From an uncultured Erythrobacter sp. (GTDB taxonomy: Bacteria > Pseudomonadota > Alphaproteobacteria > Sphingomonadales > Sphingomonadaceae): DNA of 64,000 nucleotides. The notes beneath the pieces were generated by a model. It made no database searches. It was not told the DNA's origin and saw nothing but the letters and a program-made list of their open reading frames with translations. The DNA lies in assembly GCA_947498065.1 (NCBI GenBank), contig CANMIS010000001.1, forward strand, positions 744,001 through 808,000, written 5' to 3'. The position numbers and the translations under genes are program-made. This document shows positions 56,943-61,213 of this stretch, one piece after another (the first letter of the stretch is position 1; every line of letters begins with the position of its first letter).

Positions 56943-56980
56943 GTTCAGCCACTACGCCGCTCTGGCGATAGTGGTTGAAC
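56943..56980. other. Imperfect hairpin downstream of the M16 gene
   Basis: Stem 56943-56947 / 56976-56980, then 56949-56954 / 56969-56974, then 56956-56958 / 56964-56966, with single-base bulges between and a 5-base loop. No T tract, so not a classical terminator. Confidence 0.55.
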
Positions 56981-57055
56981 ACTACTGACACGCGTGTAAA
57001 TGAGGATGCCAGAGTTTCTGAGCACCCCGCTCAGTCAAGACCAACGGAGAATATT

Positions 57056-57358
57056 ATGTCACTTTCAGGTAGCTATACCACCACCGTCAAAAGCCCAATG
57101 GGCGACCAAGCCGGCACGTTCACCATCGTCGACAATGGCGACGGCACCTTCAGCGGCAACATGGCCGGCGGCATGGGATCGATGGATGTCGAAAACGGCA
57201 AGGTCGACGGCAACACGCTGACCTGGGAAATGAACATGACTGTTCCAATGCCAATGAAGCTTGAGTGCGAAGCCACCATCGAAGGCGACACACTGGCTGG
57301 CAACGTGAATGCAGGCGCTTTCGGCGCAATGCCAGTGACCGGCACCAAAGCTGCCTAA
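57056..57358 (+). CDS. Small beta-rich protein of unknown function
   Basis: A 100-residue protein without signal peptide. Alternating short beta segments, rich in Gly, Asn and Met (for example GTFSGNMAGGMGSMDVENGK and MNMTVPMPMKLECEATI), suggest a small lipocalin-like or beta-barrel fold. It lies between the M16 protease and the cyclooxygenase-like gene, has GGAGA before ATG 57056 and is closed by its own terminator. The family was not recognised; a role with the neighbouring dioxygenase is speculation. Confidence 0.75.
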   Translation: MSLSGSYTTTVKSPMGDQAGTFTIVDNGDGTFSGNMAGGMGSMDVENGKVDGNTLTWEMNMTVPMPMKLECEATIEGDTLAGNVNAGAFGAMPVTGTKAA

Positions 57359-57540: not shown

Positions 57541-59139
57541 ATGCTTATCAAGTTCGCATATCGTATCGCAGCGATCTTAGCGAGAATCTCGCCAGGGATC
57601 GCGCGCTGGATCAATGGCTTTGCAATTGGCCGCTTGGTCAAGAAAACGCGCAGCCGCCCGCACCCCTGGAGCACGCTGAGCGAGCATGTCAGCTGGCGCG
57701 GCCTAACCGACCGCAGCTATAGCGCGCGGCACCTGCCCGCCACAACTATTCCTGATCTGCCCGACAGCGCGCGGGTCGCCGATCTGTTCCGCGTACCCGA
57801 TGGTGAGGAACAGCGGCTGTGCCCCAAATCCACCTGCCTGTTTCCGGCCTTCGCGCAATATCTCACCGATGGCTTCATCCGCACGATGATTTCCAACAAT
57901 TTCGCCACGGGCGAGAGCTTTGAAGACCGCGCGCGCAACACCTCCAACCATGAGATTGACCTGTGCCCGCTCTATGGCCGCACGCAGTTGCAGGTTCACG
58001 CTCTGCGCACCCTCTCCGAAGAGCCGGGCAAGCGCGGCAAATTGAAATCCGAGATCGTGAACGGCGAGGAATATCCGCTGCGCCTTTTCCAGCCTGGCGG
58101 AATGGCGTTCAACCCAGAGTTCGTCGGCGAGGATGGAGAGCCGCTGCTCGATACGCCGCTGGGCATTGACCACACCACGCCGGAAATGCGCGAGACCCTG
58201 TTCGCGGTCGGCGGTGACCGCGCCAATGCCGCGCCGCAAGTGACGATGCTCAACACGCTGTTCCTGCGCGAGCACAACCGGCTCGCCAATGTGATTGCCA
58301 GCAGCCATCCTGACTGGAATGATGGCCGGGTGTTTGACGCCGCGCGCGCTTGCAACACCGTCATCTTCATCAAGATCGTGGTTGAGGAATATATCAATCA
58401 CATCAACTCGACCCCGCTAATGCTAAAGGCCGATCCCTCCGCCGCGTGGAAGGCAGAATGGAACAAGCCAAACTGGATCAGCGCCGAGTTCAGCCTGCTT
58501 TACCGCTGGCATTCGCTGATCCCGCAGACGATGGTCTGGGCGGGAGAGACACTGCCCGGCGGCGCTCTGCGGCTCAACAATGCCGCGGTGCTGGAACATG
58601 GGCTCGCAAGCGCCTTTGCCGATATCAGCGCCAATCAAGCGACCGAGCTTGGCCTGCACAACACCGCGACATTCCTGGTCGATGTGGAGGAAAGCGCGGT
58701 TAAACAAGCGCGGCACAATGATATCGCGCCCTTCACCCGTTATCAGGCGGCCTTTGGCGAGGAGCCTGCGCGCAGTTTTGCCGATATCACACCAGACCGC
58801 GCGCTGCAGAGCGAGCTGGAAAGCCTATATGGCAGCGTCGACCGGCTGGAGTTTTACACCGGACTGTTTGCTCAGCCGCGCACCAAAGACGGCCCGCTGC
58901 CATCGCTGCTGCAAACTATGGTGGCAGTGGATGCGTTCTCACAGGCGCTCACCAACCCGCTGCTCTCAGAGCACATCTGGGGTGATCCAGCGGTCCAGCG
59001 CGATACCTTCACCCCGCAAGGCATCGAGGCGATTGAGGCAACCTCAACCCTGCGCGACGTCCTGATCCGCAATGCAGAAGGCCTAGGTGACCGCTTCGTC
59101 GGAATGACCCGCGAAGGTTGGAGACGTGGGGAGGAGTGA
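57541..59139 (+). CDS. Cyclooxygenase-like heme peroxidase (fatty-acid dioxygenase candidate)
   Basis: A 532-residue member of the animal heme peroxidase/cyclooxygenase superfamily, by memory closest to prostaglandin H synthase (PGHS). Residues 5-40 are hydrophobic/amphipathic and match the PGHS membrane-binding helices in position. Arg63 (SYSARHLP) corresponds to carboxylate-binding Arg120, Gln106 to Gln203, Tyr321 to the tyrosyl-radical Tyr385 and His324 to the proximal heme ligand His388 (LYRWH; PGHS LYHWH). Matching blocks include LFLREHNRLANV and KIVVEEYINHI. The distal His207 position is Asp110, so peroxidase function may be altered. Likely reaction: oxygenation of an unsaturated fatty acid. 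The ATG 57541 was chosen; an upstream in-frame codon at 57472 is less suitable. Confidence 0.85.
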   Translation: MLIKFAYRIAAILARISPGIARWINGFAIGRLVKKTRSRPHPWSTLSEHVSWRGLTDRSYSARHLPATTIPDLPDSARVADLFRVPDGEEQRLCPKSTCLFPAFAQYLTDGFIRTMISNNFATGESFEDRARNTSNHEIDLCPLYGRTQLQVHALRTLSEEPGKRGKLKSEIVNGEEYPLRLFQPGGMAFNPEFVGEDGEPLLDTPLGIDHTTPEMRETLFAVGGDRANAAPQVTMLNTLFLREHNRLANVIASSHPDWNDGRVFDAARACNTVIFIKIVVEEYINHINSTPLMLKADPSAAWKAEWNKPNWISAEFSLLYRWHSLIPQTMVWAGETLPGGALRLNNAAVLEHGLASAFADISANQATELGLHNTATFLVDVEESAVKQARHNDIAPFTRYQAAFGEEPARSFADITPDRALQSELESLYGSVDRLEFYTGLFAQPRTKDGPLPSLLQTMVAVDAFSQALTNPLLSEHIWGDPAVQRDTFTPQGIEAIEATSTLRDVLIRNAEGLGDRFVGMTREGWRRGEE

Positions 59140-60546: not shown

Positions 60547-60802
60547 AGTGAAAGTTCCCCATTTCCCGCCCGCGATTCTAGCAATCACGTTCTGAATGAC
60601 AAGAACCGCGTTTGGGATGTAAGACTACGCTAACTCAAATTATAGTTGAGGCTTTGGTGAACACGCCGGGAACAACAAGCGTCGCCTCAATCGCACCTAT
60701 CCCAACCCGGCTCATCTGCTGATCAAGGCTCAGCCCAACATACTATCTAAACCCCGCCCGTTCGACTAGGCTCACAGCTCAGCCCAGACCGGAGTGTCCA
60801 GC

Positions 60803-61213
60803 ATGAAGCAGCTTATTTATCGCTCGCAGCCCTTCGGTTTTGACAATGCGATGTTGGCGGGCATTCTGATGCAGGCTCGGCGCAATAATCCGCGCGATGG
60901 CATAACCGGCGCGCTGATTTGTCGTCAGGACCTCTACATTCAACTGATCGAGGGACCGGAGGCCGAGATTGATGCGCTTTACGCGAAGATCAGTGAGGAC
61001 GACCGGCATTGCGATGTGAGATTGGCGCTCAGTGATACGGTAAGCGAGCGGATTTTTCCTGAATGGGAAATGCTCGACGATGAAATGCCATCGCTGACCT
61101 GGACGCGTGATGAGATCACGAACGGAGCAATTGAGCAGGCAACGCCCAATATGCTGCGTTCGGTCTTTCAGACAATCGCTGACAATGCGCGCAGCCGCGA
61201 AGCTGCGCGCTGA
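60803..61213 (+). CDS. BLUF-domain blue-light sensor
   Basis: A 136-residue single-domain photoreceptor that binds FAD. The key BLUF residues are present: Tyr6 (IYRS), Asn29 (RRNNPRDGITGAL), Gln47 (YIQLIEGP) and a Trp in FPEWEML. No output domain follows, so it must act through a partner or by oligomerisation. GGAGTG lies before ATG 60803; a GTG at 60794 would add three residues. It is convergent with gatB, nine bases apart. Confidence 0.92.
   Translation: MKQLIYRSQPFGFDNAMLAGILMQARRNNPRDGITGALICRQDLYIQLIEGPEAEIDALYAKISEDDRHCDVRLALSDTVSERIFPEWEMLDDEMPSLTWTRDEITNGAIEQATPNMLRSVFQTIADNARSREAAR

Follow-up and report, generated by a model that had tools for sequence, protein, structure and literature searches.

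The founding paper on the linoleate 10S-dioxygenase (10S-DOX) of Nostoc is said to be that of Brash et al. in 2014. As described in the accessible sections of a 2026 review (PMC13049297), the Nostoc punctiforme enzyme consists of 542 residues, shares approximately 31% identity with the catalytic domain of cyclooxygenase (COX) with an rmsd of 1.2, and possesses three COX-like membrane helices, B–D. It reads FTDSF where COX reads FTHQF and contains DAFxQA in its terminal motif, with Asp at the position of COX His207 and Ala at that of Ser530. In assays, it converts oleic and linoleic acids to 10S-hydroperoxides, does not use 18:3n-6, and oxidizes 20:2n-6 at a reduced rate. The same sections report that DOXs have a conserved Arg at COX Val291, and that fungal 8R-DOX retains a distal His and has nothing corresponding to the membrane helices of COX. 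The product of the Nostoc enzyme is cleaved by a catalase-like protein, according to the available text of PMC9579011, and putative bacterial cyclooxygenases were already mentioned in the available part of an earlier review (PMC4420034). The distal His of α-dioxygenases (H157 in rice) is only partly conserved across that wide family (PMC8720084). Our literature search, for which most subscription papers were out of reach and which is thus no proof, turned up no study of any alphaproteobacterial member, from a sphingomonad or otherwise.

The window analyzed here is a 64,000-nucleotide stretch of DNA from an uncultured Erythrobacter sp. It contains a 532-residue open reading frame on the + strand, running from the ATG at 57541 to a stop codon ending at 59139, with AGGAAGG approximately 10 bases 5′ of the ATG. 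In a Pfam search with E values up to 1, the protein matched PF03098 (An_peroxidase, E = 1.5e-36), and it had no match in NCBIfam. The host genome has no other PF03098 match. The closest solved structures by sequence were, by a wide margin, the prostaglandin endoperoxide synthases PGHS-1/2, and the family profile matched PGHS-2 (4.8e-99), peroxinectin A (2.8e-29), and α-dioxygenase (2.3e-27). COX was also nearest to the predicted fold, a full-length COX fold, with 26% identity over 477 aligned residues. These observations place the protein in the COX/dioxygenase clade, as a first-pass annotation had proposed; it is neither a plant-type α-dioxygenase nor an ordinary peroxidase. Based on homology, predicted fold, residue conservation, and neighboring genes, we consider it probable that the protein belongs to the bacterial 10S-dioxygenase type, as a heme fatty-acid dioxygenase that associates with the membrane (monotopic). 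The following features were assigned:

57541..59139, + strand: predicted COX-like heme fatty-acid dioxygenase gene of bacterial 10S-DOX type, 532 residues (Pfam, closest solved structures, family profile, structural alignment)
57541..57639, + strand: residues 1–33, two predicted N-terminal helices (2–16 and 18–33) over part of the COX membrane-binding domain (predicted model, structural alignment, amphipathicity of 2–16)
57631..57636, + strand: Arg31-Leu32, with Leu32 in the COX Arg120 column and Arg31 as the adjoining basic residue, R or K in 59/92 (profile alignment, conservation)
57727..57729, + strand: Arg63, equivalent to COX Arg150 (SYYTR) and not Arg120, in 92/92 distinct sequences (profile alignment, conservation)
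57856..57870, + strand: Gln106 to Asp110, with Gln106 equivalent to COX Gln203 and Asp110 in place of the distal heme His207 (profile alignment, conservation)
58219..58221, + strand: Arg227, aligned with COX Val291 and conserved as Arg in 90/92 (profile alignment, conservation; the conserved Arg of DOXs in the available part of PMC13049297)
58390..58392, + strand: Tyr284, equivalent to COX Tyr348 (profile alignment)
58501..58512, + strand: Tyr321 to His324, which include the catalytic Tyr (COX Tyr385) and the proximal His of the heme (COX His388) (profile alignment, conservation)
58930..58947, + strand: Asp464 to Ala469, DAFSQA, the DAFxQA terminal substrate-site motif of Nostoc 10S-DOX, with Ala465 at COX Ser530 (profile alignment; motif from Table 2 of PMC13049297, available in part)

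Residues were mapped by aligning the family profile to human COX-2, with the numbering set so that Tyr321 corresponds to Tyr385. The first-pass annotation had credited the protein with the full set of PGHS landmarks, and part of that set was recovered: the alignment bore out Tyr321 and His324 as the catalytic tyrosine and proximal histidine, Gln106 corresponds to Gln203, and Trp323 and Tyr439 correspond to COX Trp387 and Tyr504. The other part is missing. Thr291 occupies the Tyr355 position, Ala465 replaces Ser530, the Arg120 column holds no arginine, the EGF domain is absent, and the COX segment FAQHFTH reads FAQYLTD, in which the distal histidine is gone. In the aligned sequence, this lost histidine is the most telling landmark of the protein, and it had been overlooked. 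The earlier pairing of Arg63 with PGHS Arg120 was ruled out by the profile alignment, which matches Arg63 with COX Arg150. Arg37 (81/92) and Arg39 were also weighed as Arg120 equivalents; the alignment puts this column at Leu32. A hand count from Pro18, which we take to pair with COX Pro106, and from Trp52 (COX Trp139) agreed with the Leu32 column to within a residue or two. Position 31 is Arg in 50/92 sequences and Lys in 9 more. The alignment has gaps near the Arg120 column, and a neighboring Arg may serve as the carboxylate anchor.

Conservation was assessed on 98 aligned rows, comprising 92 distinct sequences over residues 39–510 (window included) and 82 clusters at 90% identity. Arg39, Arg63, Gln106, Thr109, Tyr284, Tyr321, His324, Asp464, and Ala465 were invariant in the 92 distinct sequences, Arg227 was nearly so, and the COX Tyr504 position was Y in 64, F in 15, and H in 11. 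Asp110 was likewise found in 92/92, an invariance that is partly due to selection, since one of the two patterns used to fetch the 80 genome-contig homologues (of 390 relatives; start codons picked by script) contains the Asp. Among 23 further sequences (window included) found without the Asp-containing pattern, the Asp was present in 23/23; these are 18 rows (13 loci from Pfam searches including the window, and 5 from tblastn) and 5 sequences from class and phylum profile searches. The 18 rows derive from 22 BLAST-matched frames, four of which, L002–L005, were excluded; these are other PF03098 proteins whose matches are local. Alignment A1 holds 17 of the 18 rows, L008 being left out, and alignment A2 holds 57 rows (55 of the 80 genome loci, L006, and the window protein).

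The structural alignments with COX, for which the first and last aligned residues were reported, pair residue 1 of the model with COX residues 88–91, and therefore the two N-terminal helices superpose on a portion of the COX membrane-binding domain; the first part of that four-helix domain is absent. Helix 2–16 is strongly amphipathic, ranking 3 of 518 fifteen-residue windows, and the helical moment of helix 18–33 is not above that of shuffles. Few 19-residue stretches of the protein are more hydrophobic than residues 2–20, yet these reach only 1.22 on the Kyte-Doolittle scale, below the usual value for a membrane-spanning helix. The first 40 residues include nine basic and no acidic ones. The basic N-terminus and amphipathic first helix fit, and suggest, attachment to one membrane leaflet, although the second helix shows no such moment. 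The first-pass annotation was right that there are N-terminal helices at the place of those of COX. Its view that a membrane portion is unusual for bacterial relatives does not hold, given that at least 34 residues precede the invariant Arg39 in 76 of the 80 genome-contig homologues, and that the Nostoc enzyme has three helices in the available text of PMC13049297, versus two in our model. The third helix may be merged or missing in the window protein.

The comparison with the Nostoc enzyme (NpDOX, UniProt B2J5P4) rests on published motifs. Because the comparable residue features agree, apart from the Tyr504, TPy, and Ile483 positions, the window enzyme is, by its sequence, a further member of an already known bacterial 10S-dioxygenase kind, one member of which has been assayed. 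In the proposed mechanism, a peroxide would oxidize the heme held by the proximal His324, with Asp110 and Arg227 standing in for the distal histidine; both chloroperoxidase and a mutant of myoglobin activate peroxide with a distal carboxylate. The resulting ferryl heme would oxidize Tyr321 to a radical. A C18 unsaturated fatty acid would enter from the membrane past the N-terminal helices and lose an allylic hydrogen to the Tyr321 radical, and the addition of O2 would generate a hydroperoxide whose position, by analogy with the Nostoc enzyme, is probably C10 or close to it. Alphaproteobacteria are usually poor in linoleic acid, so the natural substrate is not plainly linoleic acid. The window genome contains six fatty-acid desaturase-like matches, in which fatty-acid, sphingolipid, and carotenoid types are pooled, so that they give no firm pointer to substrates. 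The oxylipin-making activity anticipated in the first-pass annotation remains the best guess; prostaglandin synthesis is not indicated.

The product itself could differ. An enzyme with the same fold and mechanism might oxygenate elsewhere, for example at another carbon of cis-vaccenate or a C16–C17 monoene, and would then not be a 10S enzyme. This reading overlaps with the 10S-type one, the product being the sole difference, and we regard it as a serious possibility at somewhat below even chances. The pocket is unlike that of Nostoc, with NSTP for TPy at 289–292 and Val461 for Ile483, based on the motifs in the available part of PMC13049297. Asn289 sits at COX Ser353, which the same text terms critical for position and stereospecificity, and this position varies among the homologues (S 48, N 22, A 17, and T 11 of 98 aligned rows). 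The retention of DAFxQA and the central Tyr argues against a different regiochemistry. The missing distal His could alternatively mark a member that lost its oxygenating function and merely binds heme or lipid; this is improbable, considering the conservation of Tyr321, His324, Tyr284, and Asp110 described above, the 98% and 95% identity at which two uncultured Erythrobacter genomes carry the protein, and the same Asp in the assayed Nostoc enzyme (available text of PMC13049297). A true bacterial prostaglandin endoperoxide synthase, binding a C20 polyene via an Arg120-like residue, making PGG2, and reducing it at the peroxidase site, is hardly credible: PGHS-1/2 are the closest solved relatives by sequence and fold, and the equivalents of Tyr385, Tyr348, Tyr504 (Tyr439), and His388 are kept, but the distal His207, Ser530, and Tyr355 are lost and the Arg120 column is Leu. 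We know of no arachidonate source for this host, which also counts against it. In the available part of PMC13049297, moreover, the Nostoc relative with the same His207 and Ser530 substitutions skips 18:3n-6 and is slow on 20:2n-6. The key residues mark the window protein as a predicted enzyme of the known bacterial type that oxygenates ordinary C18 fatty acids, and not as a bacterial prostaglandin synthase.

For the favored 10S-type dioxygenase, we searched the neighboring genes for partners. Five neighbors in the window were tested by Pfam: one is a penicillin amidase, another an M16 peptidase, the other three (a small upstream protein and two downstream genes on the opposite strand) had no Pfam match, and none of the five had a match indicating a catalase-related lyase, a partner that characterizes the Nostoc pathway rather than the dioxygenase itself. 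In the window genome, one catalase-related homologue used as the query (no positive control) returned nothing at E values up to 1, and PF00199 had no match (controls match in 5/14). A partner-P450 query gave a best value of only 0.048 there; three P450 genes above the Pfam cut-off lie on another contig. The small upstream protein (56975-57358, + strand) is also present in five Erythrobacter loci (L036–L040), approximately 0.2 to 2 kb from the dioxygenase. Among the 45 largest clusters listed, only general Erythrobacter synteny, and no conserved neighbor across the sphingomonad loci, was observed. A 139-residue frame at 60794-61213 (+ strand) resembles, on inspection by eye, a BLUF blue-light sensor domain.

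Other lineages showed pairings. In annotated plasmids of Paracoccus (L032) and Methylobacterium (L034), a catalase-family gene adjoins the dioxygenase; in Ruegeria (L035), the adjoining gene is annotated as hypothetical and resembles catalase-related proteins; and the Acaryochloris dioxygenase (L033) has neither a catalase-family nor a P450 neighbor. On a Rhizobium etli plasmid (L031, 6622-9524), a divergent P450 gene immediately precedes the dioxygenase at a distance of 21 bases, and P450 frames occupy the same place in L113, L098, and L106, with 0 to 177 bases between the frames. At these four loci, two separate genes parallel what fungi carry as a DOX-P450 fusion. BLAST searches of the 80 genome loci, extending up to 8 kb into the flanks (far less at some loci, where the contig ends) and using four single partner sequences as queries, which distant partners can escape, detected catalase-related frames at 12 loci (L094 by 37 residues only) and P450 frames at three; five of the 12 have the catalase-related frame 1.2 to 1.9 kb away on the opposite strand. 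A catalase-related part and the dioxygenase share a single frame in L097 (6810-9470, Methylorubrum rhodesianum) and L100 (1526-4312, a Caulobacteraceae assembly). Catalase-related genes fused to or near the homologues thus repeat the pairing of the Nostoc dioxygenase with its catalase-like protein. The partners are very divergent (L034 catalase-related protein versus solved catalases, 0.001; L031 P450 versus bacterial P450s, 1.6e-12). In such lineages, a catalase-related protein or P450 may take over the hydroperoxide.

In a single COX-2-rooted FastTree run on the 98 bacterial rows, the window protein fell within a 35-tip clade (support 0.85) and its inner clade of 30 (0.98). No partner was detected at any of the 24 loci of this clade (24/35) covered by the 80-locus search. 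Within the host's taxonomic family, PF03098 matches 49 of 298 genomes. Of 30 PF03098 loci taken from the best matches, 13 (window included) match the window protein over most of its length, which sets a lower bound for the family. Matches to profile A2 above 400 bits were found in 3/385 class genomes and 4/398 phylum genomes, both counts taking in the genome of the window. Judged from these sequence searches, the distribution of the dioxygenase is patchy across Proteobacteria. Four loci from related genomes (L003, L013, L015, and L017) contain very long open frames of 1542 to 3459 residues with PF03098 domains, which resemble the long bacterial peroxicins in the available part of PMC4420034.

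Tentatively, and with more doubt than assurance, we propose that the window enzyme and its proteobacterial relatives perform COX-type tyrosyl-radical dioxygenation with the invariant distal Asp and near-invariant Arg, a different peroxide-activating site in the COX fold, and that in the window clade the enzyme works with no dedicated hydroperoxide-processing partner, the released hydroperoxides, formed from monounsaturated fatty acids of the bacterium's membrane, serving in signaling or defense. A COX-clade fatty-acid dioxygenase is now placed in a marine sphingomonad, within a family scattered over Proteobacteria. The three arrangements (catalase-related partner, P450 partner, and none found) provide a handle on the assembly of bacterial oxylipin pathways and, together with the changed distal heme site, keep some interest in an already known family.

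Compared with the fungal DOX-P450 fusions (LDS, Ppo), the window protein is likewise a predicted COX-like dioxygenase of C18 acids; unlike them, it has no C-terminal P450 domain, the Pfam search of the 532 residues giving PF03098 alone. With the plant and cyanobacterial α-dioxygenases it shares the superfamily, catalytic Tyr, and proximal His, whereas the distal position (H157 in the rice enzyme) is Asp110. It resembles animal COX-1/COX-2 in its predicted fold, the place of its N-terminal helices, and the equivalents of Gln203, Tyr348, Tyr385, Tyr504, and His388, and differs in lacking the EGF domain, distal His, Ser530, Tyr355, and an Arg in the Arg120 column. The nearest cyanobacterial homologue compared, that of Acaryochloris, shares 35% identity and reads DALTHV instead of DAFxQA. 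Unlike NpDOX, the window protein has Tyr439 instead of Phe at COX Tyr504, NSTP instead of TPy in the central motif, and Val461 instead of Ile483, and its genome gave no catalase-related partner in the searches run. Like NpDOX, it combines a similar size (532 versus 542 residues), a COX-like fold, and N-terminal helices that may be of the membrane type (two predicted, versus three in NpDOX) with Asp at His207, the Tyr385, Tyr348, and His388 equivalents, DAFxQA, and Ala at Ser530, together with the Arg at Val291 that is found in DOXs.
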